From: Phycomyces nitens
Lineage: Eukaryota > Mucoromycota > Mucoromycetes > Mucorales > Phycomycetaceae
Length of the DNA stretch: 64,000 nucleotides
Direction: 5' to 3'
NCBI GenBank assembly: GCA_022702545.1
Contig: JAHRBC010000001.1
Span: 7,192,001 to 7,256,000, forward strand
This document shows, one piece after another, positions 5,444 through 36,710 of the stretch (position 1 is its first letter; every line of letters begins with the position of its first letter). The translations under genes were made by a program, and so were the position numbers. The notes below the pieces were generated by a model, which was not told where the DNA came from, ran no database searches, and saw only the letters and a program-made list of their open reading frames with translations.

Positions 5444-8151
5444 TTACATGGCATCATTAACAATAGAGAATGCTTTTTTGTACACTTCCAACATGGCTTT
5501 GCATCGTTCCCGGTCTGCTGAAATGGAAGGATCTTCTTGTAACAATTCTTCAAATAGTTCCTCGCAATAAAGTGCTGTTACTAGTTTGTTTTGAACCGAC
5601 TCTCTTGTGAAATTTACAAGGAAATGCATGATTGCCTTGGGTACTAGGTCTTGGATAGACTTGCGCACAATGTTGAAATAAGAAGTAATCAACGATCCTA
5701 TATAAAACAAATTAGTTCCAGCAATATATATATATATATATGAGATGCTGGGATACTTTACGAATAAGCTCAACTTCGAGATCTTCTTGGGTAGAACGGC
5801 TTGTAGGTATGGGGTCAATGGGACTTTCGGATGAAATGGACTGTTCACATACAATCAGAATTCATTGATCATTTGGTTTCTGATATGCTTGTGCTTACAT
5901 GTTGTGCGAATAGAGAATCAAGACCTTCGGTATCATTAGGCTGTGGTGGCTGGCCAAAAGGGCTCTTTTCTTGGAAATCTTTACTGCCTCGGTCTGCTTT
6001 GGGTACACCACCAAAGAAGTAGTTTAAGAACGAGTCCTTTGGAGGTGAACCCGACACACTTGAGCCGATATTCATTCCATTTTCTTTCTTTTGACTAGAG
6101 ATGCTGCCTTGGTTCAAGGTACGATGCTATACAGACAATATATATGTATATATATAAACCACTGTGCTGTTTTTTTGTTGGCAACTCACATGTTTCTTCT
6201 TTATTACTCCCTTGGATTTCTTCTCTAGTTCAGCCATGGCACCACTTGCTCCAAGGAAATCTGGGTGGTTTGTGTTTATGTAGGCACATTGGGTTGATAT
6301 GAGACTCTCGACATAGACAGAGGTTGGCATCAGACGTTCGCGCAGCAAGTTTGACACGACCTCAATCAGCTTAGTATGTAACTTGGGGAACCTTAAGAGT
6401 TCCTAAATAAAGGAATAAATGGAATTGATTGATATATTTGGTAGTTTTGGACATTACCTTGTTGCCACATGTATGACAGATCTTGTAGAGTTCTTCATAT
6501 GCCAAATTGACACACTTGAGACTTGGTGCCTCGAGTAGTCTGATTTGTGGTCGCACAAGCAAATCAAACGCTAGTTCAGGTACAAATAGCGAGCATCTTG
6601 GCCCAGTAGAGTTACGAATGGCAGTGCGGATATCCTCGTTTGTGAGGTTTCCACAGGGCAATATAGAGTCCAGAGCATGGCCAAAAATGTTGTTGAAGAT
6701 ATAATAGATTCTTGCTCCTCCAGATCTTTTGTATAGGATAAGCAATTTGATTTGATTTAATAAGTATCCAATACTTATACTTACAGCTCTTTGGTCGATA
6801 TTTGTGAAGAAGTGCCGTCAATAGAAGCCACAAACTCGGTAGAAAACATGGTAAGAAGTTTGAGGATCAAGGATCCCTAATAATAATAATGAAAAGGTTG
6901 ACAAAAGAATAAACCAATATATCTACTTACACTGTGCACTTTTCCGACAAAGGCCGAGTCTCCATACTGAGCTAGTTCATGCTGTGTTTGGCCAATCATG
7001 GAGCTAAGCTTTGAGCGCAAATCAGGTAGCTTTTCACGAATATGATTGACAAGAACCTATAATATTTGGTTTTTTGTTGGTAAATCCCCATCATATTCCC
7101 AGATATCAATGTACTCACTGTGTTGAGTTGCTTTGTCAGGTATGCTGTTCCTGAACGATTGACAATGCTCTGGTAAGCAGGGTGTCTTTGGAAGAATTGT
7201 TCTTCTGCCTGGAGAGCCTCTGCCATTGGTTTGTTGGTCAGGATATCCTGTTGACTTCGGTTGACAAGACCAACAAAGCCTAGCTTTAGCGGAAATGCTC
7301 TTCCGGTCAAGACATCCAAAGCATGGGTGCCGGCATCCATAAGATCCAGCTTTGTCACCACACCAATCGTACGTTTTCCAGCTGGATCCATCATCCTGGC
7401 CAGTTTCAGACTGTCTGAATTAGCCAGATCAGAGTTGGCTGGAGTGATGGCTAGGATAATACTATTATTTGGTTAGTGGCTGGGTGCATTAATAAACAGC
7501 ATACCTATTTGGTTTGGAGATATAGTCTAGAATAAGCTGTCTTATTTGCTTTTCGATATCGGCCGGTTGGTCGCCTTTGATGATATGGCCATTAATAAGC
7601 GTATTAATGACATTTGATTAAGAAAAAATGACTCACCGATTGGAAGCTAAACAAAGGGGAGGTGGGTGGGTGGGTGGGTTAGGCATGAATCGACTACTGA
7701 TCGAGATTGGGATATTAAATATTACCTTTGTTAGGCCAGGAAGGTCTACAAGCGTAAGGTTAAGAACCTTTTTAGAGTAAATTTTAAGATGAATCGGCTT
7801 CCGAGCAATTCCTTTGTTGTGTCCGGCTATCCGAGCCGTGTCATCTTCGATTTCACGTCGTACGTCGTTAAAGTCATAAAACTTCTTTTGAGGAACATGC
7901 AAGAATTCTGCATAGTCAGGGCCATCAGTCTCGGATCGCAAGGTGATTAGCTGGAGGACAAGAGGTCTACGGGTGACGATTCCACTACCACGAGGCAAGA
8001 AGTCTCTTTGGACAATATTCTCTAAAACAGACGATTTGCCTGAACTCTGGGCACCGACAGTAATGATCTGGGGGAGATCAAGACTCTCATTTCCTCCCAC
8101 AGTTGAAAAGACGTCCTGAACTCGGTTGATTAGCTCAACTACGTTCTCCAT
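5444..8151 (-). CDS. DNM1: Dynamin-related GTPase for mitochondrial and peroxisomal fission
   Basis: Cytosolic GTPase that assembles on organelle membranes and constricts them. The sequence tracks Dnm1/Drp1 rather than Vps1: P-loop GAQSSGKSS (33-41), [19 protein letters not shown] (G4), [26 protein letters not shown] in the stalk, RNSTGPR, and a C-terminal GED with [17 protein letters not shown] resolve eleven exons: 8151-7726, 7646-7637, 7574-7505, 7461-7119, 7056-6931, 6876-6785, 6725-6458, 6402-6190, 6126-5899, 5840-5762, 5697-5444. The second is a 10-nt microexon that supplies LPIG of the conserved G-D-Q block; without it the frame breaks. The insert B region is short (SFLNYFFGG), as in fungal Dnm1. 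The start ATG precedes the conserved INRVQDVF helix. Confidence 0.94.
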
Positions 8152-9479: not shown

Positions 9480-10154
9480 GGATACATACGATGCATCGAA
9501 AATCAATTCCAATATAATAAAGACAGTCGTCAGTATTAATCAAATGGCAACCACGGGTATTATGAACAAGGCTGTAGAGTAAAGACACGAGCGGTTATGA
9601 TTTTGCAGAGGAACTGCATTCAATTGTCGAGCAACCAAACGAGCCTGTCTCTGAACAACTTGGCTCTGTGGATATTTTTTGAACCTTTCACTACCAACAG
9701 CCTTGAAGATGTTTATAAAGTGAAAAAAAAGTGAAAAAGAATATAAAGACATCGTATCAGATACTTTTGCTATCCCTATAGTCCTAATGAAGAATGCAAA
9801 ACGTCTGATCAAACAGATTGATGAAGCACATATTACATCAAGAACAATGTATATCATCAATAAATTGTCTTTGTTAAATAATCATATAGTGGAGTTGGCA
9901 GGGATAGAATACAAATGTACTACTACTGAAAAATTCAAATGGGGCGGTATACTCTTTACGATCAACCAAAGAGATGTATCAATTGTTTTGGTAGAGTTCT
10001 TCAGTGGGTCTAAGGACAAGACTTTTACTATCAAATAAAGTTGGTACATTGAAAAAATTATACACAAAGACCAAAGCTTTAATGATAAAGATCCCACCCC
10101 AAAAGCCAAATATTCTTTGTTACTGAACAGATGCACTCTGAATATCAAGAACAA
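9480..10154 (-). pseudogene. Decayed multi-pass membrane protein reading frame
   Basis: On the minus strand a single frame from about 10154 to 9480 encodes repeated hydrophobic segments separated by basic loops (for example LWSLCIIFSMYQLYLIV, LLMIYIVLDVICASSICL, MSLYSFSLFFHFINIF, LYSTALFIIPVVAI, LILTTVFIILELIF). The frame is interrupted by two in-frame TGA codons, near 9883-9885 and 9540-9542, with hydrophobic coding-like sequence continuing on both sides. I do not recognise the family. Either this is a decayed gene, or the stops lie inside small introns whose sites I could not place. No genetic-code change is implied, because other genes here end normally in TGA. Confidence 0.3.
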
Positions 10155-10389
10155 CTGGAAAATATATTAATACTTATAATAACCAATTTCGAGCAGTATT
10201 TATTTGGTTTATACCTAAAGAAGCCGCTAATTACTTGACAACAATTGAAACAAAAACAAAAATATATTGAACTTTATCTAGACAACTTTTTTAAAGTATA
10301 AAAAGAGCAATAAAACCAACAAGTATTTACTGTGAAAATAATTCTTTAAATGAGTAAGATGCTTTGTATATATATATATATATAACAGA

Positions 10390-12149
10390 GTGTATTCACC
10401 TGTATTTTATAAAGAGAGTAAAGTAATCGGAACTACTGTTCCTATTGTTTATCAATGGTCTATTCCAAACTGGTCCACAATACAATCTCGCCTTGTTTTT
10501 CATAGTCCAGAGTTTGAATCCTATAATCGTCAATGGCAAGTGGACTTGGAATGATAAATAACCTTTTTGAAATATCAAGGTTGTTAATTATACTATGCAT
10601 GTATATCATTGTAGGTTTATTCAGGTACCGTGGTGTCAGTTTCTAACCTATTGGTATACTAAATGTCTATATAATATATGATTCTAGGTTGAAAGACAAA
10701 TCAATGTTTCTAAAGAGGTATATTGATGAATAGCAGTAAATAAATTCATATTTACTTGGGATTTTATAGAAAATCATTGTCCATGTTCAGCTAAAGGATA
10801 ACTATAATAAAATCAATGACGAACCTCAGCATGACTTTAATCTATTCTTGAACATAAAAAACAACGCTGGGAATTCCAAACTATTCAATAATATCGGTCC
10901 AAGTAAGTTTAAATTTTTAATATCATACAATTTCCATTACTTACATTCTATTAGGCTCCACTATAAAAAGTCACGCTAGTAAGGCCCGAGTACTACTAAG
11001 TGTCCTAATCGTATTGTATTAACAGCATCTTAGTATCTTATGAATGGGAATCTCCTGCTACATCATCTTTGGACGCTTTAAACGAGTCTGCCGACAAGGA
11101 TTCATTGACAATCTCGGTCCATATCAAGAGAGAATTGCCTGAGCCAAAATTTAGACCTTTCACTGCTCCCAAGTCAGAGTCAGCAGCTAAAGATATGTCC
11201 AATATCCCTCACGATGTAACCGTTCATGTTTTTCAAGGTGTCAAAAAGACAGACCGTTCAGAATATCAGTCATTTGGCTGCCACAAAGCCAAACTAGCAA
11301 AAGCATCCAAATGGTTTAAACAAATATTTAATAATGCCGAGGAACCTGTAACCGATGAGGCCATAATACAAGGAATGAAGCCAGAGATATTCAAAAGGCT
11401 CTTACAATACAGCTACACATCAAAGCCAGAAATAAAGAGCATTGAAGACGCAGTTACGATTATCGAAGCAGCAGACCGCCTTGAATTCAAGACTCTTTAT
11501 AAAGAAGGATTCAATTATCTACAGAAAAATATTAGCTCTGATAATATCTGGAGCATTTGGAAGGTTGCAGGCAAGATATTCAAAAGGCAGTTTTATATAT
11601 ATACTGAACTGTTATGTAGATGTATACCACTGCAAAAAATCTATTGAAGTTTGCAAAGAATATCTAAAGGGAAACATTGAATCGATCTTTAAAAACGCCT
11701 CTTGGTTAAGAGTAGACATTATTTATGCCATAATGGCCCTCAATGTTGACGGTCTACCAGAGGCTGTGAATGAAGCGCTATTCTTTGATGCAGCCCTCAT
11801 CTGGAGAGAATGGAATATCGAGCAAATAGAAAAAAAGGCATCATATAATGACTCGTGGCAATCCGAAAAACAAGAACAGCAAGAACGGGAAGAAATAAAC
11901 CGTAAATTTGCATTAATGATTCGTTGTATTCGATTTCCTCAGATGGTGAAAGAAGACTTGCGTTATATTAGTTACAACATACCATTTGTAATGAATATTG
12001 AGGGAATCCCTCGAACGGCAAGTCTTTAAACATGTTTATAATCTCTAAACCCAACTAACCCCAACTTTCAGATTTCTAGAGCCTTTCGGGACATACAATT
12101 TGACAAGGAACCTATACCGACAGAATATCAAAAGCGACACGTATCTTGA
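10390..12149 (+). CDS. MATH-BTB (SPOP-like) protein, exon map partly unresolved
   Basis: Likely substrate adaptor of a Cullin-3 ubiquitin ligase. The first part is a split MATH domain: a segment with YQWSIPNWSTIQS and HSPEFESYNRQWQVDLE (10390-10552), a segment IIVHVQLKDNYNK (about 10772-10905), then an exon from about 11026 containing the MATH end (DSLTISVHI). A BTB domain follows from about 11200 (HDVTVHVFQG, FGCHKAKLAKASKWFKQIF, LLQYSYTSKPEI), then a BACK-like helix (EVCKEYLKGNIESIF). The last intron is GC-AG (12018-12071) and leads to a short final exon ending at 12149. The 5' exon and start codon are not identified. Between 11580 and 11640 the frame changes without an obvious intron, next to a TATATATA run, so a frameshift or an unrecognised intron is present. 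Confidence 0.7.
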
Positions 12150-12365
12150 CTTTTTTTTAATGTTTTGAAAAATACACAAATCCTTAAATATGATGAGTTT
12201 GCTGTACATATTAAGTGCAATGACACGATCGTAAAGGTCATTTTGCTATATTATGAATATTTCAAATCTAGGTCTAATGGTTATGCTTAATATAAAGCAG
12301 GCAAAATGTATGAAGTTTAAGAATGTTGAGGTATGTGGATATAGAACATGGTTATACAATGTCTA

Positions 12366-13292
12366 TTATGCTGTCTTTTTACCAAATGGTTCTATAACAA
12401 CCGAGAAGTTGTTTCTCTCTCCACCTTCTCGGCCTGGAAGGATCTTCTTCTTCCAGTCCAATTTCTTTGTGACGGGCATATCTGTGAGTTCAAACAGGTA
12501 ATATGCCAGCTTGTTGGAGAAGTGGTGTTTTATGCAATTTGTGTACCCAATGGACTTCATCATAGCCAACAAGTGTTCGTGGGACATGTATCTGGAATTG
12601 TTGACGCAGGGCAATGGTAGAACGAGGAAGAGGTAGTGCAGACGACTGGTTTCAGAGAGAGAGGGCAAAAAGTTGCGAGTCTGGATCAGCATCTTACCTA
12701 AAGACTCGTTTAGCAAAAAAAATAAAGTGCTATGTTTTTTTTTGAATATTTTACCTCTGTCTTTTGGATCCCCAACAAAGTTTACAACTAGACTCAAACA
12801 GACAACATCGAATTTGTCTAGAGTGATTGGCATAGTCAAAAAGTCCTGTTTTTCAATTGCTGGGTCCTGAGGGTTTAAATCAATTGGTTTGGCCTTGATC
12901 CACGAAGCATAAGGCTTATAATTATCAGGAGCTACAGCACCAACATCGAGTACACGCAGTGGCTTTGTTGCAGTATCCATGTTTTCTTTGCAATGTTCCT
13001 TGAGCACCTTGACGAGCCACTTTGAAGAATCTCCGCCTCGGGTTTTGCTCTGTCCCAGTTGGGATGCCTTTTGGTACCAGTCAATGCCACCCATGCTATC
13101 CATTTCTTCTACGATCGCCTTTTCTCTTATGCGATCTGCTGGATCGTTGGATTGTTGACATTTAGCAAGTTCTTTATTCAGCACATGAAATCTTCGAATA
13201 AGACGAGCGGTCTCTGCGGATGACCGCTTAAAGTGTGTCCCAGTGTTGTTTCTCTGGGCTGTAATTGGAATCTTTTTGCGTGCTTTTCCCAT
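12366..13292 (-). CDS. BMT2: 25S rRNA adenine-N1 methyltransferase Bmt2
   Basis: Nucleolar SAM-dependent enzyme that places m1A on large-subunit rRNA. Family marks: the basic N-terminus MGKARKK, GGIDWYQKASQLGQ, GGDSSKWLVK, the SAM-binding stretch LRVLDVGAVAPDN, DLNPQDPAIEKQDFL, VCLSLVVNFVGDPKDRG, and FLVLPLPCVNNSRY. A 57-nt intron (12754-12698) lies inside the last of these regions. It is a multiple of three and has no stop, so the unspliced frame stays open; removing it gives DPKDRGKMLIQ as expected of the family. The ATG at 13292 is preferred over the upstream in-frame TTG. It is divergent from the glutaredoxin-like gene across about 160 bp. Confidence 0.9.
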   Translation of the reverse strand: MGKARKKIPITAQRNNTGTHFKRSSAETARLIRRFHVLNKELAKCQQSNDPADRIREKAIVEEMDSMGGIDWYQKASQLGQSKTRGGDSSKWLVKVLKEHCKENMDTATKPLRVLDVGAVAPDNYKPYASWIKAKPIDLNPQDPAIEKQDFLTMPITLDKFDVVCLSLVVNFVGDPKDRGKIFKKKHSTLFFLLNESLGKMLIQTRNFLPSLSETSRLHYLFLVLPLPCVNNSRYMSHEHLLAMMKSIGYTNCIKHHFSNKLAYYLFELTDMPVTKKLDWKKKILPGREGGERNNFSVVIEPFGKKTA

Positions 13293-13452
13293 TGTTAACA
13301 ATCTAATAAAAAAAGAAGAAAAAAAATCCCAGTTGGCAGACGGACCTTGTCACGTGCAGGTTGTCATGGCAACATGTAGGCATTCTAGTCCAGTTGTGAC
13401 TTGTATAATAAAGATACAAGGGAGAGGAGAAGACAACTCACTGATTACAACA

Positions 13453-13795
13453 ATGGCATCCCGAGCAATCAAGCTTACTCTTTACTCTTCCAGCACTTGT
13501 TCTCTCTGCACAACTGCCAGAGACAACATTTTGAGAGTTCAGAAAAAAGTAAGTGAGAATTATGTAGTAAATGGAGCCTGACATGAATGCATGCCAGACT
13601 CCCTTCGCTCTTTCTGTTTTGGATATCCACAAGCCCGAATGCCCAAAAGAAATGGCAGACAAGTACATTTTTGATGTCCCCGTCGTTCACATGAATGACC
13701 AGTTCCTTATGCAACATTATGTGCCTGAAGAAACGCTTTTGGAAGCTATCAAGAAGTTTGAAACTACAGGCAAAGTAGAAAGAGTTGCCGCCTAA
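13453..13795 (+). CDS. Glutaredoxin-like (DUF836) small thioredoxin-fold protein
   Basis: Short thioredoxin-fold protein of the glutaredoxin-like family that includes yeast YDR286C; its redox role is poorly defined. Exons 13453-13548 and 13598-13795 flank a 49-nt intron and give 97 residues. The N-terminal strand LTLYSSSTCSLC holds a C-x2-C at the glutaredoxin active-site position, followed by a helix. The C-terminal half contains YIFDVPVVHMND, with the cis-proline expected before the third strand (DVPVVH). The small size fits the family. Function beyond the fold is inference. Confidence 0.85.
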
Positions 13796-14130
13796 ACAAT
13801 CTAGCCAATCAACCCAAGAGTAATCAAACTTTGTTCCCATGGCAACACAAGGGCACTGTGGGAGTTTGACTGCAGCAGCAAATATCTATCTCTAGGCAAA
13901 TTTATTTGTTTGGTTTTATACCTGTAAAGAAATGTAATTACATTGTTTCTTGGTGGAATCAAATGATAGCTGTGGGATCCATTAAATAAGAATCCAAAGT
14001 ATTGATGTTTTCTGGTCGACCCGATTCTGGATAATGACTAGCCTGACGATTGTGGTTGGAGTTGAGCCAATGATGGGTGAAGTATGGACACTATATTTAT
14101 ATATCTGTATATGGGATGATTTGAAGCAAG

Positions 14131-15629
14131 TCATGGATCTGTACTCGAGAATCCAAAATGTAGGGCCATGTACGACCATTTAGAATAGAATTGAACACGA
14201 GGATCAAGAAAGTCCTTTCTATCCAGCAATGTAAAGAATAGGGAGTTTGCATACACAGGCTGTTTGTATCAATGTTTAGCTTACAAAAAACTCAAGTTTT
14301 ACTGCCTTGTTTGTGGTTGTCATAAATATTACTTTTATGCGCGTATTTAATTAAAGCAATATTATTGAATTGGATCACACCAAGGTGGCATTAGTCTGTT
14401 TCCTATTCTGACCGTGTCATTTGATTACCTTTTTCCTACCCTTTGCTTGGATTTCGAATTGTTCAAAATAGAGCCAATAACCATACAAAACATCAAGAGG
14501 AATCAAGGCAAAAAAGAAGGGGGGAACCGAATCATGCTGTTTTGAACGAAATTCTGCAAGATTCACCATGTATCTTGAGAATGGTGTTGTTTGGACGTCA
14601 AAATCTATTGGTTGACGTGGTGTCAAGGACATGTTGTTTTCTTTGATTTACAGGGTGGTATGATTCATTCGTATAGCATATCATTGGATCAAATGGTTGG
14701 CAGACTTGTAGAAAAGAATACAAGATCCTTGTATGATTGATAAGAGATCCTGAACATGGCGTGATAGTTACAAGAGACTGAATGGTGGCTAATTTACATT
14801 ATTGATGGTGAGGCAAGCAATTGACAAGAGAAAAATTGGATATGCTACACACAAAACTCAGGAGCAATGATCGGAGCCAAACCAAGAAGAGAAAAACGTG
14901 GAGAATATGGGAAACTTGGAAGCATGGAAACCAAGTGCAAACAATGGGCTATTGTGTACATTGACATGTCAAGGCAACAAAAGATGTACATTATATTAAT
15001 CCTTGGTGAGAAATCAAAAAAAGAAAACAAAAGAATTAAAAGTATATCTTATATATTCAAAAATCAACTTTATTGGTAATCATTATCTTTGAAGTGCTTC
15101 AACTTGGTTATCATCATCAGCCTAATATAGCAATAAACCCCAGTATTGTCAACAAGTACTAAAGCAAAAAGATAAAACAGTATCCATGGATACCACGGCC
15201 TAGATAGCCAGCCTATTTATTACTGGCTCCAAAGGGACTCGCAAACCCACTTGGGTTGCACTTGTAGACATGAATATGATTGCTCAGTAGTAAAACAGGA
15301 CCATCATTTGTACTTGTTCATGATAGCAATCATATTTTGATAGCTGAAATACTCGATAGTATTTTTGGAATATGCCCACAGCATAAGTATTTTTATAGCT
15401 CCAAATATCCATAACTGGAACAAGAGCGTTCTGATGGGCCGGGTCAGTCAAAGGCCGAAATTTGTGCCAACAGGCTCTCAGGTCTGTCATTGTATCGAGC
15501 TTGTCAGGATTAGTCTGCCCGGAACCTTCTATAGGTCAATGTCCCATTCGATGTTTGTGGTTTATAATCTTGTTCCAATGAGTCTGCTGACGTGGTGTTT
15601 CCTGGTAATGTCACAATGCCTAGTGCCAT
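14131..15629 (-). pseudogene. Unrecognised split coding-like segments (gene or decayed gene)
   Basis: Three minus-strand blocks read like protein. Block one begins with ATG at 15629 (MALGIVTLPGN), reads to TYRRFRAD, then must jump one frame to continue as NPDKLDTMTDLRACWHKF and DPAHQNALVPVMDIW down to about 15325. Block two (14632-14422) contains PIDFDVQTTPFSRYMVNLAE and PLDVLYGYWLYFEQFE and ends at a GTAATC donor. Block three (about 14264-14131), after a CAG acceptor in matching phase, reads NSLFFTLLDRKDFLDPRVQF and ends in STDP. The product is unknown to me. The frame change near 15520 and the missing link between blocks one and two suggest a damaged gene or unresolved introns. Confidence 0.35.
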
Positions 15630-15853
15630 TTGTAACACTCTTATTTACAGTCATTTCACGTCTTGGGCTGTCTGTGGTTTCTATGTTCCTACACCAGTTT
15701 CTGATTGTCGTTTCGGCGCCTTTTTTTTCTTTCTCTTTTACTTCTTTGCTGTTTCGTTAATGTTTGTTTAGAAGAGCAAGAGGTTGTAAGCTTAAGAATC
15801 TTCGGATTTTTAAATTATAAAGGCTTTTTTTTATTAATCTCACGCAGTTTATT

Positions 15854-16162
15854 TTACATCACCGCACAGCATCCACCTCCTGCTGCAGGCGCAAATGGAT
15901 CCTCTTTCTTGTCAATGGGGCCCCAGACAGAGGGCACCATAGGATCCTTTGTATTTTTGCAGTATTCAATCAAGCTAAAAAATCAAAGAAATAGACTAGA
16001 ATTTCAGCGTCATTGTCAAGGTTGGTTTGGGATGGTGTACCTAGAAGATGCCGAAGATACGGTGATTCTAGGGACATCAAGCTGTTCTCTTAAACACTGA
16101 TTCAATTCGAGCAAACGGTTGAGCTTGGCTTCAGATATGTTTTGAGCTCTTCGCGTGGGCAT
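15854..16162 (-). CDS. STE18: Heterotrimeric G-protein gamma subunit
   Basis: Small membrane-anchored partner of G-beta, acting in pheromone and nutrient signalling. Exons 16162-16041 and 15974-15854 flank a 66-nt intron and yield 80 residues. The N-terminal half is a coiled-coil helix ([19 protein letters not shown]) typical of GGL domains. The C-terminal half has [18 protein letters not shown] and [15 protein letters not shown], ending in the CaaX box CAVM preceded by a second cysteine, as expected for farnesylation plus palmitoylation. It is divergent from LYS4 with 296 bp between the two start codons. Confidence 0.92.
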
Positions 16163-16458
16163 GACTGTGGGTATAATGAGCGTATAGGGGCGAGATGAGA
16201 GAGAAGGAGAGACGACCAAGGGTTGGGTTGTTGTGGTGCAAAGGTTGATTAACGCCTGTGACTTTAAGTTCCGCTCATCGCATTTCACGCGGGACTGCCA
16301 TTGCCTCTTTTGGACATTGACAGAGATGAAATTGAGCATCTGTGATAATCTTCAACCATTCTTTATAAACCGTCTCCGGTTAACTACATCTCATTCTTTC
16401 TCTCAAAAACCCCCCACTCTCTTCTTTACACTCTTACTTGGCCATAAAGACACACACA

Positions 16459-26678: not shown

Positions 26679-27647
26679 ATGTCTATTCCTGGGATACCGC
26701 GACTCAAAAAGGGAGAAAGGCCAACTCACTATATTATATAAAGGTATCATAAAACGCGATCTGTCGAGAGCATACGTCATGGAGGAAGACCTGGACTTCT
26801 CAAGGGCAGAGACAAAGGGGATATCCAAAAAATGATACAAAAGAATCGCAAAAAGACATTGAAAGACGTTACAGAGGAAGTGGAGGAAATGATTGCTGCA
26901 CCTATTTCCGAATCTACTGTTCGCCAAACCTTGCACGATTTGGGGTTTAACAGCCGTGTTGCAGTTGCCAAGCCTTTCTTGACACAGGCAAATATGGCGG
27001 CACGAAAGAGATGGGCCCAAGCAAGAATGAATTGGAGCGAAGAATGGAAATCGGTGATTTGGAGTGATGAGTCCCGGTTTACGCTTTTCAAGACAAATGG
27101 GCGTACCCATGTGTGGAGAAGACCAAATGAAAAGTATGCCACTGACTGCCTCCAACCAAAGGTGCAAGGAGATTGTGGATCAGTAATGGTATGGGGGTGC
27201 ATCTGGGCCGGAGGTGTCGGACCCCTTGTTGTCCTAAAGTACAATATGAATGCAAAGTCCTATGTAAAAGTATTGCAGACAGTATTCAAGCCGTACTTTG
27301 ACAGTCTTCCGCACAAGGACGAGCTGCACTACTATTTCCAAGAAGATAATGCCACGCCACATAAAGCAGCATTGTCAAAAAAGTGCAAGGAAGGTCTTGG
27401 CATAGACGTTTTTGAGTGGCCATCAAAGAGTCCAGATCTCAGCCCAATTGAGAATATCTGGAATCTTTTGGATGGCCGTGTGCGGTCAAGACCTTGCCAG
27501 CCTACCACATTGAAGAAGTTAGAAGATGCTCTGAAAGAGGAGTGGGAAACTATCGCTATAAGTGTATGTGAAAAGTACTGCCTTAACATGCCCAAAAGAC
27601 TATTGGCTGTTAAAAGTATAAAGGTGGGCCTATACTTTATTAAATAA
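26679..27647 (+). pseudogene. Tc1-like DD34E transposase, damaged N-terminus
   Basis: Catalytic DDE integrase of the Tc1/mariner superfamily. The intact part starts before 26832 with RSVESIRHGGRPG (end of the paired-like DNA-binding region), then VIWSDESRFTLF (first D), GSVMVWGCIW, YYFQEDNATPH (second D) and KSPDLSPIENIWNLLD (E), with 34 residues between second D and E, so DD34E. The N-terminal helix-turn-helix part is damaged: the same frame meets a TAA near 26741, and the preceding sequence makes sense only in mixed frames. The catalytic triad itself is complete, so decay has started from the 5' end. Confidence 0.85.
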
Positions 27648-27767
27648 ACACCTAATTTTTATCAGTTAAAGTACAATCCTTAAGCTATATAATCACAAAG
27701 TTGTAGAGGTCTTGGATGCATATATAAGGAATATGATAGAAAACAAAATATGATATTGGATTTACTT

Positions 27768-27812
27768 GATTTTTGAAATGTGATTTCGGAAATTCAAATT
27801 TCTAGGGCACTG
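27768..27812 (+). repeat. Right terminal inverted repeat of Tc1-like element
   Basis: AT-rich terminal repeat ending TTCTAGGGCACTG, followed by TA at 27813-27814. It includes an imperfect internal palindrome around GAAATTCAAATTTC. The partner repeat on the left was not found. Confidence 0.65.
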
Positions 27813-28539
27813 TAAATATCATTAATTTGTTGTAAACTTAAACTTATTTTTTTTATTAGTGGATAAACCTTGGACTAAAATGAATTATAGTCAATAAGAT
27901 GCTTTTCCAATATGTAGTTATCATTTAACCACAAGATTATAACATGAGCTGTCGTCATGTTTCTTCAATATTTAAACAAAGAGATACGATTTATTAAAGA
28001 TAGGAATATGAACCAAAATTACAATTACGATTAAGAAATATAAATGATTGGTGGTGGCAAATGAGAAAGGGTCGTGATAATGGGAGTAGTATATCGGTAG
28101 ATTTTGTATTTAGGAAATTGATCACAACGATTCTAATTTGTCAAAAAATGGGCGTCAATGGAATATATAAAGTCAAAATAAAAAAAAAAGAATACATTAG
28201 CCTTAGATAAGAATTTATGTAGAAAAGACATACCTTTGACTATTGCCCAGCTACACCTTTGCAAATTATGCAGGAACATCTGCAACGGATTTCATTTTAG
28301 AGGCTACGGATCTTTGAGAGAAAAAAGGTCAATATTAGAATTATTTAATCTTCTTACTACACACAAACAGACTTTAGATTCTAAAAATTACCTGATAACA
28401 GTCAAAGTGGAAAGAACAACATTGTTGAGAATAATGGTGAAGTATCAGAACTAAGGGTATACTCAATGTCACAGCCAAATTCAAGATTTTTGTCGCCTCA
28501 GCAACATATATCCTAAAATTTGGCTCATACAATATGACA
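27813..28539. other. AT-rich spacer between transposon and tandem array
   Basis: Nothing convincing is encoded here. A 72-codon open frame at 28236-28454 plus has no motif. The DNA is AT-rich with poly-A near 28170-28190. Confidence 0.5.
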
Positions 28540-31068
28540 TTAGCATTCTTTTGTCATCATTTACTCTCGGTCATCTGCTTCTATGTTTGCGTCCGCTCGA
28601 ATTTCGTAAAGGTTCGTCGTATTCGCATGCTATGTCCTGTCATCAATACACAATTTAGTATATTTGCTAGCTTACCATATGGTCTCGTTGTCGTATCATC
28701 TGTCAAAACTCGTATTCGATTTCGTTCGTTCTCGTCTTCTGTATCCACTAATCTTCGACGTCCGGTATGTTATTCGTCTATTACTCGTCGGATGGGTCAA
28801 TGTTTTCGTCGTCGTGTGTAATCGTCGTCGTTAAATGCTGTTCGTCTGTATCCATGTTTGCGTTCGTTCGTTCGTAATTCGTAAACGTTCGTCGTAATCG
28901 TATCCTATGTCCTGCCAAAAAAATCCAAATTAGAATGTGTGCTCGCTTACCTTAATTCCCTGTCGTCCATATCGTCTGCAAAAGTTCGTATTCGATTTCG
29001 TTCGTTTTCGTCGTCTGTATCCACTTATCGTCGACGTCTGGTATGGTATTCGTCTGGTACTCGTCGTATGGGTCAATGTTTATGTCGTCGTGCGTAATCG
29101 TCGTCGTTAACTGTTGTTCGTCTGTATCCATGTTTGTGTTCGTTCGTTCGTTCGTAATTCGTAAATGTTCGTCGTATTCGTATCCTATGTCCTACCAACA
29201 AAAAATCTAAATTAGAATGTGGGCTCGCTTACCTTAATTCCCTGTCGTCCATATCATCTGCAAAAGCTCGTATTCGATTTCGTTCGTTTTCGTCGTCTGT
29301 ATCCACTTATCGTCGACGTCTGGTATGTTATTCGTCTGGTGCTCGTCGTATGGGTCAATGTTTTCGTCGTCGTGCGTAATCGTCGTTGTTAACTGTTGTT
29401 CGTCTGTATCCATGCTTGTGTTCGTTCGTTCGTTCGTAATTCGTAAACGTTCGTCGTAATCGTATCCTATGTCCTGCCAAAAAAATCCAAATTAGAATGT
29501 GTGCTCGCTTACCTTAATTCCCTGTCATCCATATCGTCTGCAAAAGTTCGTATTCGATTTCGTTCGATTTCGTCGTCTGTATCCACTTATCGTCGACGTC
29601 TGGTATGGTATTCGTCTGGTACTCGTCGGATGGGTCAATGTTTATGTCGTCGTGCGTAATAGTCGTCGTTAACTGTTGTTCGTCTGTATCCATGTTTGCG
29701 TTCGTTCGTTCGTAATTCGTAAACGTTCGTCGTAATCGTATCCTATGTCCTGCCAAAAAAATCCAAATTAGAATGTGTGCTCGCTTACCTTAATTCCCTG
29801 TCGTCCATATCGTCTGCAAAAGTTCGTATTCGATTTCGTTCGTTTTCGTCGTCTGTATCCACTTATCGTCGACGTCTGGTATGGTATTCGTCTGGTACTC
29901 GTCGTATGGGTCAATGTTTATGTCGTCGTGCGTAATAGTCGTCGTTAACTGTTGTTCGTCTGTATCCATGCTTGTGTTCGTTCGTTCGTTCGTAATTCGT
30001 AAACGTTCGTCGTATTCGTATCCTATGTCCTGCCAAAAAAAATCCAAATTAGAATGTGGGCTCGCTTACCTTAATTCCCTGTCGTCCATATCGTTTGCAA
30101 AAGTTCGTATTCGATTTCGTTCGATTTCGTCGTCTGTATCCACTTATCGTCGACGTCTGGTATGTTATTCGTCTGGTGCTCGTTGTATGGGTCAATTTTT
30201 TCGTCGTCGTGCGTAATCGTCGTCGTTAACTGTTGTTCGTCTGTATCCATGTTTTCGTTCGTTCGTAATTTCGTAAAGATTCGTCGTATTCGTATTCCAT
30301 GCTCTGCCATAGAAATCCAAATTAGAATATGTGCTCGCTTACCTTAATTCCCTGTCATCCATATCGTCTGTAAAAGTTCGTATTCGATTTCGTTCGTACT
30401 CGTCGTCTGTATCCAATAAGCGTCGAGGTCTGGTATGTTATTCGTCTGGTACTCGTCGTATGGGTCAATGTTTTCGTCGTCGTGCGTAATCGTTCGTCGT
30501 TAATCGTTGTTCGTTGTATCCATGTTTGCGTTCGTTCGTAATTTCGTAAAGATTTGTCGTATTCGTATCCTATGTCCTGCCATAAAAATCCAAATTAGAA
30601 TATGTGTTCGCTTACCTTAATGCCCTGTCATCCATATCGTCTGCAAAAGTTCGTATTCGATTTCGTTCGTACTCGTCGTCTGTATCCACTTATCGTCGAC
30701 GGCTGGTATGGTATTCGTCTGGTACTCGTCGTATGGGTCAATGTTTTTGTCGTCGTACGTAATCGTCGTCGTTAACTGTTGCTGGTCTGTATCTAAGTTT
30801 TCGTGCGTTCGTTCGTAAATTCGTAAAGGTTCGTCGTATTCGTATCCTATGTCCTGCCGTAAAAATCCAAATTAGAATATGTGTTCGCTTACCTTATAAT
30901 CTTGTCGTTTGTATCCATTAAACTTTGACGGCTGATAAGGTATTCGGTTGGCATTCGTTGAATACATTAGTTCCTGACCTTGGACTCAATCTTCACCGTA
31001 TATTGCTGATAGTCCGAATCTGTTCTGGCATGCGTTCGTTTAGGTCCGTCGTATTTATATTTCATATC
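28540..31068 (-). repeat. Tandem array of ~275-bp units, each carrying two intron-like segments
   Basis: Ten head-to-tail units start, on the minus strand, at 31068 (degenerate), 30853, 30576, 30303, 30029, 29749, 29473, 29191, 28911 and 28636 (truncated); spacing between intact units is 273-282 bp. In the unit starting at 30029 the layout is: exon-like A 30029-29863 (167 nt), GTGGAT..TTTTGCAG segment of 49 nt, exon-like B 29813-29789 (25 nt), GTAAGC..CTAAT..GGCAG segment of 39 nt, then the next unit. A plus B is 192 nt, 64 codons, phase zero at both ends, and reads DIGYEYDERLRI...VDDKRYGRQGIK, an acidic Asp/Thr/Asn-rich peptide. The same sites recur in nearly all units. No known family is recognised; the array could be the body of a spliced gene, a decayed one, or a noncoding transcript. 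Confidence 0.85.
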
Positions 31069-31107
31069 CTGTTATAAATATTCAAGTTAGTATATGTGTT
31101 TACTTAC

Positions 31108-31440
31108 CTTATTGTAGCAATATTTTTTACATCTCGGACAGTAGTCCTAATGAGATGTAATAGTCGGCTAGTATTATTATATATATACACTTACCTTGTT
31201 TTATACTTTATTAACTCACTGTGAGATGTAACATGGAAATTTTTGCGATTTCTACGTCGACTGATCTGCTATTTCGATAAACCTATATTGGATGAAATAA
31301 TTATTAGTTTGTTAGCACTATTTTGTGCTTACCTTTCAAGTCTTTCTTTGTTATTGCTTGTCCTATATAATCTACGATATATATCTGTCTACGCGTACTG
31401 ATCCAACATTGATTTTGCGCTGAATATATATTGTGTTATG
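31108..31440 (-). other. Candidate upstream exons of the tandem-array transcript
   Basis: Just 5' of the array on the minus strand, consensus-like donors and acceptors continue. A 39-nt exon-like block (31146-31108) between TTAG and GTAAGT reads DYCPRCKKYCYNK, with a C-x2-C pair, and joins in phase to the first degenerate unit (DMKYKYDGPKRTH). Before it, a block reading SVDVEIAKISMLHLT can be joined in phase through a GTGAGT donor. A further block ends YIGQAITKKDLK at a GTAAGC donor, but its phase does not fit the next block. These are predictions from splice-site patterns only. Confidence 0.3.
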
Positions 31441-33386
31441 TCTCTATGTATTCCTGTCTCCAAAGTCTTCGGTCTCAGTGGATATGGATATTCCAAATAT
31501 ATCTATCATACTAGCCGTCTGGTATATCGTATATAAAGGTTTCTCGTCATGAATTTCTGATATCGAGGTTTTATCTTCATTTTTTCTATGTTTTTTGTAT
31601 TTGTATTTTTTTTTAATTTTGTTTTTTTTTATTATGGTTGAGTGATCTCCAAACAGAGGTGAACATGATCTACGTATAACGACTGAGTTGTCTTTTATCT
31701 TCAATCTTCTAATATGTAGGTCGGTGATAACTATGAGCCTTGAAGTATATCTAGGGGATCGTTTTGCTTGAATGCCTTGAAGTAAACACCTTGATAGTCT
31801 TGTTATGTGCTGTAGTATAGTTGTCGTCCAGGGTCTCTAGAAAAGAATGAGTAAGGTGTTAACTATCGATATATAATAGCATACAATCAAAGGGCTTCGA
31901 TTTGGTACAAAATTATGGTTTTGCTCATGGATGTATTGAATATGTGGCAATAGTATCCAATGATGCAACATAGAATATTTTTGAATTGCCTTACCTATCA
32001 CATGTAGAATACCAGTGGTCTGCTAGTAATTGTGCTGTTTATACATCTCCAGAGTTCGTTTAATCTTTGCGTGATATTCGATTCTCAAACATACTGTTCG
32101 TTTACCTGCAAGTCATTCTTGAAAGGAGGCGGAAATTTTGATATCGTGGCCGTATTTATGTAGACTCTGCCAGTATAGATAGTCTAAATATTGCAGGAAC
32201 GTTGGTTATGTCTGAGCAAGGCTTTTCTCAGAAACATTGAGAGGCTATAAAGAGACCGGTCATCGGCCAAGGTGATCGTTTGTAACTCAACAGGGCAGTA
32301 TTCAGTGGAGTTAACCATCCCACATATTTGCCAATGTGGTGAACTGGAGAAATTCCATGATCAAGATCAAACCAGAAATGGAGCGGGCGTGCAGAGTAAG
32401 CGGGTGCGGAAATCATAAACATGTGGATAGGCTTACAGATCTTGTAGATACGGTGGACTGCGGTAGTGAGTAGACGGCCATTTGCGATATAAGTGGAAGT
32501 CAAGCAGTCTCGGTTTGGATTCTATATAATACTCACAATTTAAGAAAGCCATGTCACAATATTATCTCCAAGTACTTGAGCTTACCAGTAGTCTAACCAA
32601 AATGGAGGACAATACCCTCTATATCATTGTGTGATTCTTGGATAGTGGATGGTGAATGTTCGTTTCAATTTGGCGGACGGAATGCTGGTCAGAGCTGGTT
32701 GACGACATCTTTGATCCTTGACAGCTAACCAAGAATATTCTGATATATCTGGCCAACAAAATAGTTCTTTCGGCTCCCTTGGATTGGTGTATTTACTGCC
32801 TCGGTTACCCTCAATAGTGTGGATGGAAACGATGTCATTTTATAGCTTGAAGATGAGTTCAATCGGCATTCTAGTATTTTCACTGGGCCACTTTGAATGT
32901 CAATATGTCCATCATCTGGAGTTACTACCTCTGTTATTCCTAAGAGCGCATATGATAGTGTAGCCTTTAAGCGTTCCGTTGACTTGTTCCCGTTGCTCTC
33001 TAATGAGAGAAACTTTGTTCTCTCTACTAATTAGGACTTACCTTTTGCTAGCTATGTACTGCGGTATGTGTTATCCAGTCAAGCGAACGATAGGTCATTC
33101 GTATAGTGCTGCTTGCGTTCCTTCTCGATTATTTCCTGAGGGTATTGTGCTTTTATATGCCTTGACTTCTTGCAACTGTACGGCAGACGACAATCCTTTG
33201 TTCTCTTTAAAATCTTCCTTCGTGTCCTTCTTTGTGACTGTAACTAAATCCAACAGACATGTCTTGGTATTTCAAGTAAACCTTGGGCCTTCGTCTAACA
33301 TCTATCTCGTATATCAAAGGATGTGTCTAATCATTTCCTCGTAGCTGTGTCCATCATGATAAAAGTATAATACCAAGTTGTGGTAA
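31441..33386. other. Unassigned stretch of the accessory island
   Basis: No recognisable gene. Several minus-strand segments are open and flanked by plausible splice sites (for example NDIVSIHTIEGNRGSKY near 32850, and ARPLHFWFDLDHGISPVHH near 32370), but more than one frame looks coding in places and no single consistent model emerges. It may contain further exons of the neighbouring candidate genes or old element remains. Confidence 0.35.
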
Positions 33387-33947
33387 TCAAGGATTCGTAT
33401 AATCTTTAATGATCTTTAAAACAGTATATTTTGATCTAACTGTTCTATAGAGTTGTGACATGTCTAGGTACACAAAAAGGATATTCCTCTCACTATCAAC
33501 TTCTGGTATATCCGTAACGTATGGTGTCCAACAATACCGTCTAAGCATATCGTAGAAACTGTTTTTGCTATCTCAAAAGATAGTAATAGGTATGTTTCTG
33601 TCTTCTTTCGGCTTTTACTCTACACTGGTACTGGAACAAAAGTCTGGAAAAGCTGGTCGGTACATGAGTCCCAGTCGATGGTGTCAAAAACAGATGCAAT
33701 GCCTTTGGGGATAATCTACATCTGAATCGTCATTTAGTAACTCAAACTTACTTTTTACAGGCCTTGGCAAAACAGTGATAGGTTTTTCATGAGCTATACG
33801 CGTCTCATTTCCAAAGACGAGAATGCAATTGGCAGGTTTTTGTAATGCTAATGATGAGGTAAATTCAAAAGAGGAATCCATAAAAGTGTTGGCATCTTGA
33901 TTGAGGACGCGTCTTCTAGTGTCTCTTCTTGTCAAGGTCTCAGTCAT
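33387..33947 (-). CDS. Candidate three-exon gene, unknown function
   Basis: Three minus-strand blocks join in phase through good splice sites: 33947-33752 (start MTETLTRRDTRRR), intron GTAAGT..AAAG of 49 nt, 33702-33624 (IASVFDTIDWDSCTDQLFQ), intron GTAGAG..TTAG of 83 nt, 33540-33387 (CWTPYVTDIPEVDSERN, FVYLDMSQLYRTVRSKY), ending in TGA. The product is 142 residues, without signal peptide or membrane segment, and I recognise no domain. Consistent phase across both junctions is the main support. It lies upstream of, and on the same strand as, the tandem array, so it could also be the 5' part of one longer transcription unit if the TGA is avoided by splicing. Confidence 0.4.
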
Positions 33948-34479
33948 GGCTTGTATTTATATCAGCTCTTTAAAATAAAAAAAAGTCAAAAAAACGCGTT
34001 CATAAAACTTGATTCATTCTTCAGTTACCTTGTATACCTAAACCCAAAGTGTTTATATATGCCGGTAATAGCCGTCTAAACAGCTTATTATTAATACTGT
34101 ACTCTCTTAAAGAGGTATACATAACTTCTTTGCAAAAAGTAAATGTGGGAACATGTAAATGAGAGGAAGGAGGCAAGAGATGTAAAAAATGATTGAGCGT
34201 GAGAGTCTCATTTTATACACGAATTTTGCTAGGGACACCATCGTGTGTCACGTGTATTGACTTGCCCTTTTTTGATTGCCTTATTTCTTCTGCTACATAT
34301 TTAATAACCCAAAGCCCAGGACTGACACAATACTAGAATATTGAAAGTATTCTTGGTGTTCTAGTTGTAATAATTGTATCTAGCTTGAGAATATCTTCCA
34401 TTGCATTCAATCTCTTGTATTCCAGCAATTTAGTGTAAATGTCTCTGATGCCTGGCTTGTTATTTCTGAAATGTCCAGT

Positions 34480-34860
34480 GCAATTTTTCTTTGAATTAAA
34501 CCGCTAATCAGATTCATAAGAAACGGAATTGAACTTTGAATCAAATTTGGAAAGCAAACTTGGAATCTATTTCGTAAATCCAACTCGACATCGAACTTTG
34601 CTTCCAGACTGGGCACTGAACCATGTATTGAACCACAATAAACATCGGTTTGAGCCATACATTGGACTTTTTATTAAACCTTGCTTTGGACTTGGAGTGT
34701 AACTTGGCATCCGAGCTGGATTGAACTCGACATTGGAGTTTTGAACAAGTTTTGGATACGCTTGGAGTGCGAGTTGGAGTTGGAGTTGGACCTGGACTTG
34801 ACATTGAAGTGTACTTTACATGTGTGGATCACACTTACCTTAACTTGAATTGTCTTGGTT
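34480..34860. repeat. Degenerate TTGGA-rich short-period repeat
   Basis: The motif TTGGA, often as ACTTGGA or GTTGGA, recurs many times on the plus strand with short, roughly 6-12 nt spacing, clearest at 34720-34805 where GTTGGAGTTGGAGTTGGAC occurs. It makes small open frames on the minus strand (SPGPTPTPTRTP) that I regard as by-products of the repeat. Confidence 0.55.
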
Positions 34861-36710
34861 TGAAGCGCTTGATTACGACAGAGATTTTTTCAGGAGTAAG
34901 CCATGACCTCTTGGGATATTCTGGAAAGTAGGTCTTTATCTTTGGCTCGACCCCACAAATTTTGGCTTTCTTAACGGCTGGTCTTTATCCTGGGTTGAAC
35001 TTGACTTGAATTTCGGGAATCTGTTGTTAATCTATACTCATACACCGGCTGAAATACGAACTGATTATATTCTTAGTCTTGTTGGCATAAATGCTTGGAT
35101 TTGACAGCCGGATTTTTGGTATAATCGGAACAGGTGGGACAAGCAGGGTAATACAATCTACTACAACCGCCACTTCCGACAGCAGGACCAGTAAAGCTAT
35201 CAACAAAGGAATAATGGGACCATCAACAGAAGCCATGTGCCACTCGAGCAATGTGTCAACAACATTGGGCTGGACAATCAGCAGTAGACGGATGACTAGA
35301 CTTGATTGATACAATACCCTACATTCGCACAGAGGCACTTTAAGTCTCTGGGGGAGAGAAGTAGGCTTGTCGTACTTGATGGTCACCAATTAGCAAGAAC
35401 CATTCTTTACTCTCACTGGAATTCTCCAAATGGTGTCCTCTTGTAGTATATAGCCCGGGATAAAGAAACTAAAAACAATTTATATAGCTAGTATCCAACA
35501 TGGGATAAAATACAGTATAATGGAACAAATACTTATCTTAATGATTCTCCTTGATGCTGTCACAATCGTATGGATTTGTGGGCAATGCCATTTAGTACCA
35601 TATTGCTGCTTGGGTTCACACTGTTTTGTGGGGAGCGCCCTCGTAGACCGCTGGTAGCCTATAAAGTCCTGCCAGTGTTAGTGGTGTTTGTATAGATTTT
35701 ATGGATTGTATTATCCCTGATGATCTTGCGGTTGCTGCTTCTTGCTGTTATACTAGGACTGGTTTTGTTGTTGGTCTTGGAATCCTCAGGTTGATTTCGA
35801 TTTGACTTTGGCTTGAGTATTTCGGAAGACCACAAAGGTATACCTCTGCAGACTGGCAATGGAGTGTCAGCTCTACGTGATTTGAATATTTCGTCTTGGT
35901 TTTTGTTTTCGGCTGATGGTTTGGATTTTTACCGTTGATTGGTATCGTTGATTTACATTGTTAATTTTTATTGCTTTCATCTCTATTGCCAGAATATTGG
36001 GGGTGGATAAAGGTAGAAGTGATATCCATTTGGGACCAGTCTTAATTCGGCGTCTTGCTGGACTGATCTAATCTGAGCATATCGATATGAGGTTTATCCC
36101 CGGACTGGATTCTTGAATTAGATTGTCCTAGTAATAAAGGACGGCCCAGAAAGACAGACTTGCTATGGAAATTGATTTACAAATGAAGTGGCTACCCAGG
36201 TGTGTCTTTATAGTTGACCTCGGGCATATAAAATGTACTCTCAGGGCAGTAGAATTGAACATTGCTTCTCCTTGACAGATACGAGCACACACACTTTGTA
36301 CTGAGCAGGGAATGTCTCGCAGTGTGTGTATAACTTTAATTGACATATGCAATCTCTTCTTGACGACAGTCGCAAGTGTATCTTTGATCTGGCTCATCGA
36401 ATTTGGTGTGACAAGCCAGATCAGCTTGAATGCACTTAAAATAGATATTGTGGTGATCCAGTCATATTGCTGCTATAAAGCAAATATATTGAACGAGTGG
36501 CATTATAAATGATATGAATATGAATATGAAAGATGTTTAAAAGGTCCCTTTGAAGATTTATGTAGGCATTGATTCAACATGGAAGCTTTGTTGAATAAAA
36601 ATGTCTATTTGACTTTTAATTATATTGAATGTACAAGCTACATTGATAATATACAAATGCTTTTATCTTACAAATATAAAAATTTGAGATATTAGAGTAA
36701 CTATTGGTGC
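34861..36710. other. Accessory spacer, no supported gene
   Basis: No recognisable gene. A 120-codon minus frame at 35027-35389 overlaps a 72-codon plus frame, and a 66-codon minus frame lies at 35659-35859; none shows a motif or usable splice context. Composition is less AT-rich than the following desert, compatible with old mobile-element remains. Confidence 0.4.

Follow-up and report, generated by a model that had tools for sequence, protein, structure and literature searches.

What is the tandem array of approximately 275-nt units with intron-like segments that lies on the minus strand of a 64,000-nucleotide stretch of the Phycomyces nitens genome (hereafter, the window): an exon array encoding a modular protein, or a repeat in which an intron has been multiplied? 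The first-pass annotation favored the former possibility, namely, an array with two introns per unit, the spliced product of which would be a protein of identical acidic modules. The results of the present analysis lead us to consider it likely that the array is, instead, a minisatellite within a decayed MULE-associated dispersed repeat of Phycomyces nitens, that it carries one multiplied intron, and that it acts as a patch for recombination between copies of this repeat. What is new here is a variant, namely, a minisatellite associated with a transposon and containing a single tiny intron in each unit, and not a protein family.

The array was delineated by TRF at 28603-30896 (period 273/276, 8.3 copies, 90% matches), and a profile built from six window units retrieved ten unit matches in the window and 75 in the ten family loci described below. 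The array itself is real, although the description of it as ten head-to-tail units of about 275 bp applies in full to eight of these (273-282 nt): on the minus strand, the first unit, which starts at 31107, is only 215 nt long, and the last unit, which extends to 28553, is partial. Ten segments of 39-41 nt, with the pattern GT..CTAA..AG, occupy the same place in every window unit; the intron-to-intron spacing is 215 nt in the first unit and then 277, 273, 273, 281, 276, 280, 282 and 275 nt in the full units. The array is embedded in a longer region that is common to nine other copies in the genome and corresponds to positions 9541-16188 of a 24-kb oriented stretch of the window. There was no Rfam match at the gathering threshold in the window, and no tRNA genes were found at 27000-35500. 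The features are as follows, with the short segments designated introns on the basis of their predicted splice signals:

27813-34460, minus strand: the whole window copy, consisting of the left part, the array and the right part, common to nine other copies according to genome searches
31108-34460, minus strand: left part, about 3.3 kb, non-coding by comparison of ten copies
30893-31107, minus strand: divergent first unit, a 39-nt intron and a 176-nt exon
30620-31065, minus strand: GenBank model CLU79DRAFT_846611 (P0001, 117 aa), exons 31065-30979, 30922-30893 and 30853-30620
28676-30892, minus strand: eight full units, each an intron and an ACGA-rich exon, 273-282 nt by intron spacing
28553-28675, minus strand: partial last unit, a 39-nt intron and the start of an exon
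31069-31107, minus strand: intron 1 of 10, GTAAGTAAACACATATACTAACTTGAATATTTATAACAG
30854-30892, minus strand: intron 2 of 10, 39 nt, spliced in GenBank model CLU79DRAFT_846611
30577-30615, minus strand: intron 3 of 10, 39 nt
30304-30342, minus strand: intron 4 of 10, 39 nt
30030-30069, minus strand: intron 5 of 10, 40 nt
29750-29788, minus strand: intron 6 of 10, 39 nt
29474-29512, minus strand: intron 7 of 10, 39 nt
29192-29232, minus strand: intron 8 of 10, 41 nt
28912-28950, minus strand: intron 9 of 10, 39 nt
28637-28675, minus strand: intron 10 of 10, 39 nt
29814-29862, minus strand: proposed second 'intron' of the unit at 30029, GTGGAT..TTTTGCAG, 49 nt, judged exonic, with five ACGA
27813-28533, minus strand: right part, a decayed homologue of a MULE second ORF and the downstream region, by DNA match and tblastn

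Rather than representing a gene at a single locus, the array belongs to a dispersed family with ten copies and one partial copy. At least 22 matches of the unit were identified in nine loci, all of which belong to this family; the left flank is present in ten full places on contigs C1, C5 and C7 and in one partial place on contig C4, and the right flank matches the ten copies and six further loci. The family layout runs from a non-coding left part through the array to a right part that is decayed and shows homology to MULE transposons. In the left part, no codon periodicity was detected across the ten copies except in one window at the array edge (P=0.005, with overlapping windows), and 148 of the 183 alignment gaps are 1 or 2 nt long. 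This part includes a 90-codon open stretch around 33947-33687, and an 87-aa piece is found at 11 places, in 8 of which it is stop-free. The right-part DNA matches six MULE-type loci, with the longest match starting at 28533, and in the window copy (hereafter W) the stretch 28315-28034 matches the second ORF of the MULEs in a tblastn search; tblastn detected homology to this accessory ORF beyond the array on the right in each of the ten copies, with no hit in C4. In one of these six loci, the host MULE L026, the first ORF encodes a MULE transposase domain (PF10551, E 2.2e-17) and is followed by this second ORF, of 278 aa, which has 83 matches in the genome, fragments counted. We take the second ORF to be OTU-like by the motif DGWCGF..HW (DGxC..HW) alone; no meaningful hit bearing on this identity was obtained in Pfam, NCBIfam and PDB sequence searches, and the mean pLDDT of the predicted structure, 31, is too low to be informative.

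PMC6446971 lists MULEs that include a Mucorales group and describes plant Pack-MULEs as transposase-less MULEs carrying other sequence. The family analyzed here resembles MULEs in the homology of its right part to the second ORF and the end of MULEs in the same genome, and differs from them in that searches of it for a transposase, a left terminal repeat and a target duplication found none of these. For the transposase, the queries were two host MULEs only (PF10551, E 2.2e-17 and 7e-19), and the matches associated with copy C7d are located about 4 kb upstream of that copy. The right ends of C7e, C7c and C7b resemble MULE termini, with no left partner found; in the two of ten copies in which target duplications of 9-10 bp were sought, the candidate repeats do not adjoin a terminus. 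There is also a likeness to Rehavkus, for which the same paper describes a minisatellite before the 3' terminal repeat (PMC6446971), in that a tandem repeat precedes the right end of a MULE-related element, but the present unit is about 275 nt long and contains a whole intron. Among the matches listed in a search of the open-access literature, no paper was recognised that deals with this array or with whole short introns arranged in tandem within MULEs.

In three copies, C5b, C5c and C1b, the shared sequence continues on either side beyond the limits that apply to the remaining copies, and these three therefore may be parts of larger duplications. Given this shared outer sequence, and with neither a left terminal repeat nor a target duplication detected, the mobility of the family is unproven. 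Spread of the copies by segmental duplication and gene conversion, rather than as a mobile element, is accordingly an appreciable possibility, which we weight more heavily because of the shared outer flanks, even though it is not the one we favor. It would account for the inverted pairs C7a/C7b and C7c/C7e, which are tens of kb apart and have left parts 97-99.7% identical, for the extra sequence of C5b, C5c and C1b, and for the target duplications not found in the two copies tried. Conversely, full copies are present on three contigs, and on four if the partial copy is included; W, C7a, C7b, C5a and C7d lack a longer outer stretch common to other copies; and C7e, C7c and C7b end in MULE-like termini.

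The homology of W to the other copies ends at 27813, and an ORF for a Tc1/mariner-type transposase (PF01498, PF13358; 26832-27647, plus strand) adjoins this end. Locus L034 (C4:8496500-8503499) is a MULE that has inverted terminal repeats and contains two long open frames, of 701 and 266 aa; near its right end there are several terminus matches, 35 nt apart, and its second frame recurs elsewhere in the genome, open over an equal length. Within the additional sequence that C5b, C5c and C1b have in common, to the right of C5b, we observed a 151-aa ORF (L012, about 5673-6127, minus strand) with a YVCGCCGGLFF motif that is, we presume, reminiscent of Helitron-type proteins. A tyrosine-recombinase-like fragment (123 aa; PF00589, E 3.9e-4, below the Pfam cut-off) was considered as a family component and rejected: among the fetched loci, it occurs only to the left of C7c and C7e (L014/L016).

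Each unit had been proposed to contain two introns, and comparison of the units separates these. Site and frame counts are based on 49 full units from six loci (15+9+8+8+5+4); outside these counts are the six short first units, the first unit of C7a, the last units, and one 333-nt unit of C5a that exceeded the length limit of the counting script, whereas C7c, C7d, C7e and C5c have no full unit by the same rule. The GTAAGC..CTAAT..GGCAG segment is indeed present at a fixed place, with the consensus GTAAGY..CTAAT..CAG over 39-41 nt. Its GT and AG are intact in all eight full window units and in 46 of the 49 units genome-wide; the three exceptions, all among the eight full units of C5a, carry ATAAGT in place of the donor, and the branch-site TAA and the final AG are invariant in the 49 units. 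When site variability is expressed as variant events counted per locus, with diversity as a second measure, the 12 core sites of this intron average 0.5 events, compared to 1.33 for the whole intron (P=0.007), and the difference from all unit positions (1.22 events) is of borderline significance, with P=0.07 when events are counted and P=0.046 when diversity is used. The pattern of U2-type introns, with GT-AG and the branch site more conserved than their neighbors, is accordingly observed for this segment, with a borderline result for the comparison with the whole unit. The second segment, GTGGAT..TTTTGCAG, behaves differently: its GT..AG is intact in 6 of the 8 full window units and 36 of 49 genome-wide (elsewhere, the ends read GC, TT, AA or GG), its eight core sites average 1.12 events against 1.22 for all positions (P=0.52), and its GT/AG taken alone 1.75 events against 1.19 in the exon (P=0.80). 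In addition, this segment in the unit at 30029 holds five ACGA, as the exon does, and ACGA is absent from the first segment. The suggested alignment of the units for splice-site conservation thus sustains the GT, branch site and AG of the first segment and fails to sustain those of the second; judging from such sequence comparisons, one of the two putative introns holds up and the other probably is exonic.

The partial copy in C4, which is separated from the other copies by the deepest split of the family, shows the same local conservation: its intron is 80-87% identical to those of five copies, compared to 60-70% for the preceding 50 nt and 53-58% for the following 36 nt, with gap columns scored as differences and the introns chosen by a pattern written after inspection. 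The donor of the C4 intron is GC, and the first intron of C7d lacks the final G. The length of the array intron is unusual. In a weak pattern scan of 134.5 kb of background sequence, intron-like patterns exceeded chance at 46-61 nt, whereas at 38-41 nt there was no excess (5 seen, 7.5 expected), so that the 39-nt form appears unusually short; a 46-nt form that uses the next AG would fit the background range. Both forms occur in the three automatic GenBank models that use the array donors, with 39-nt introns in P0001 and 46-nt introns in P0002 and P0004. The shortness of the segments relative to the host intron-like excess is what could be expected if they were a conserved DNA or RNA motif of a satellite and not spliced introns at all. 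We regard this as unlikely because conservation within the segment is concentrated on the GT, branch site and AG, because the segment is T-rich (36% T, no ACGA) next to a T-poor exon (15% T), and because these three models splice at the sites in question.

If the segment is an intron, its number varies widely among the copies of the family within one genome. By pattern, 66 introns, 63 of them exactly 39 nt long, were matched in 11 loci: one each in C4 and C7d, two each in C5c, C7c and C7e, six in C1b, seven each in C5b and C5a, 10 in W, 11 in C7b and 17 in C7a; these counts exclude decayed or longer introns in C5a, C7c and C7d. In the C4 copy, the intron is present without a duplicate. We infer from the series growth from one intron, although C4, given its missing right part, may have been reduced secondarily instead of being ancestral. 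The family probably derives from a transcription unit of several exons in which a single 39-nt spliceosomal intron occupied the place of the array. Tandem duplication of a segment comprising the whole intron and about 200-240 nt of the following T-poor, ACGA-rich exon would have founded the array, which then might have grown and shrunk through unequal exchange or slippage, so that between 1 and 17 intact introns are now present per copy. That the individual copies grew independently is not clearly indicated because unit identity within loci (94.2%) is only moderately above that between loci (90.5%). This scheme is akin to intron gain by tandem duplication, in that the intron number rises and the splicing signals are inherited, but here the whole intron and exon are copied repeatedly, in relics of an element. 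It is also distinct from introner elements, which are near-identical introns at many unrelated sites: the listed 22 unit matches represent nine loci of one family. Copies in which one and the same tiny intron occurs intact 1, 2, 6, 7, 10, 11 and 17 times coexist in one genome, which offers a direct handle on intron multiplication, on the splicing of runs of short introns and on recognition by RNA silencing.

The array also marks a discontinuity in the relationships between copies. The left and right parts are, respectively, 99.7% and 71.5% identical in C7c/C7e, 95.0% and 63.1% in C5a/C7b, and 93.6% and 99.4% in C5b/C5c. When the last 400 nt before the array are compared with the first 200 nt after it, identity steps from 99.7% to 83.5% in C7c/C7e, from 95.7% to 69.1% in C5a/C7b, and from 93.4% to 100% in C5b/C5c. 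Not all of the discordance arises at the array, since right-part identity also declines in pairs without a step, such as C7a/C7b, where it falls from 99.0% to 90.7% and 73.6% with distance from the array. The identity steps are best explained by exchange within the array, although gene conversion ending there would look alike. The array may have served as a patch of homology at which left and right parts were swapped between copies; it is the apparent site where these parts change partners, that is, a minisatellite acting as a recombination junction.

The exons of the array have a peculiar composition, with 15% T, 100 ACGA per kb and no TCGT. Positions within ACGA show 0.72 events, compared to 1.50 for other exon positions, and only 2 of 231 circular shifts gave a value as low. 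The excess of ACGA seems to be mostly a matter of dinucleotide composition because the ACGA count of 24, although above the mean of 17 in 2000 first-order Markov controls, is below their maximum of 29. A further reading, which we consider decidedly doubtful, is that of a selfish element with up to 17 minimal introns, enhancer-like ACGA exons and selection at the RNA level, in which the array would be a spliceosome trap or RNAi lure, or else a recombination hub for swapping right ends; if this were so, the range of 1 to 17 introns in one genome would be a natural experimental variable. It is improbable that the array yields a non-coding RNA that holds or stalls spliceosomes, with the effect of factor titration or of RNAi silencing of the element. 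The succession of as many as 17 introns that are very short and closely resemble each other and the ACGA positions that vary half as much as other exon bases would suit such a role, and parallels exist in PMC3116199, where factor titration is proposed for the UACUAAC repeats of Gomafu, and in PMC6232588, where transposon introns are reported to feed RNAi silencing in Cryptococcus; the mostly compositional origin of the ACGA excess argues against it. Gomafu/MIAT and the array have in common the repetition of branch-site-like motifs, but according to PMC3116199 the Gomafu repeats lie in a non-coding exon and bind SF1, whereas the branch sites of the array lie within the intron-like segments.

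If the family copies are transcribed, the introns would be removed one by one, as 39 nt or, with the next AG, as 46 nt, and the resulting RNA would consist of repeated exons and not of one open frame. The first-pass annotation derived a product of 192 nt for the unit at 30029, which is arithmetically correct, and a frame running from unit to unit, which is not kept across the array. Under the two-intron model, four of the eight full window units are multiples of three and four are open, and across the joined units no run free of stops exceeds 152 of 554 codons; over the six loci, 35/49 products are multiples of three, 11/49 are open and 38/49 are closed in all frames, and in C7a, the most homogeneous array, none of the 15 is open. 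The one-intron model fares no better, with 10 of 54 exons being multiples of three, 6 open and 48 closed; in the window, its longest run (131 codons) is the same as in the antisense control (131). The frames are interrupted by 1- and 4-nt indels, TAA precedes most donors, and no codon-phase signal was detected at the variable sites of the units. Thus, the kept reading frame that characterizes a protein-coding tandem exon array was not found.

Coding arrays with introns in each repeat and a preserved frame are known, for example, LPA kringle IV-2 and nebulin. The array shares with these a tandem unit composed of an exon and an intron, and differs from them in that the frame is lost. A modular acidic protein is unlikely because the reading frame is not kept, and a gene for repeated acidic modules with two exons per unit is the least credible reading, highly improbable despite the larger share of multiples of three under two introns (35/49 against 10/54), the four open window units and the small proteins annotated automatically at W and C1b, in the face of second-intron sites that are not conserved, 38/49 and 48/54 closed units under the two models, the missing codon phase, and annotated proteins that differ in frame and splicing.

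Protein searches, starting from a unit translation, which covered proteins of 0.55-1.75 times the query length and one of which scored only the 7997 candidates sharing most words, returned four P. nitens proteins (P0001-P0004) and none from other species. All 117 residues of CLU79DRAFT_846611 (P0001) are reproduced exactly by the W locus, with introns at 30978-30923 (56 nt, in the first exon) and 30892-30854 (39 nt, the array intron). P0002 and P0004 fit the C1b copy exactly, with array donors joined to an AG located 7 nt further on, and P0002 additionally has a 158-nt intron; for P0003, no exact match was obtained at C7a, C7b or C5a. The proposed second intron does not appear in any of the three mapped models, and frames and splice choices differ between the proteins, which cautions that automatic annotation turns such arrays into inconsistent small proteins. 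Finally, elsewhere in the window, a 27/54/81-nt tandem repeat at 54019-54523 lies within an ORF (53623-54942, minus strand) and encodes PHGGPHDGP repeats.
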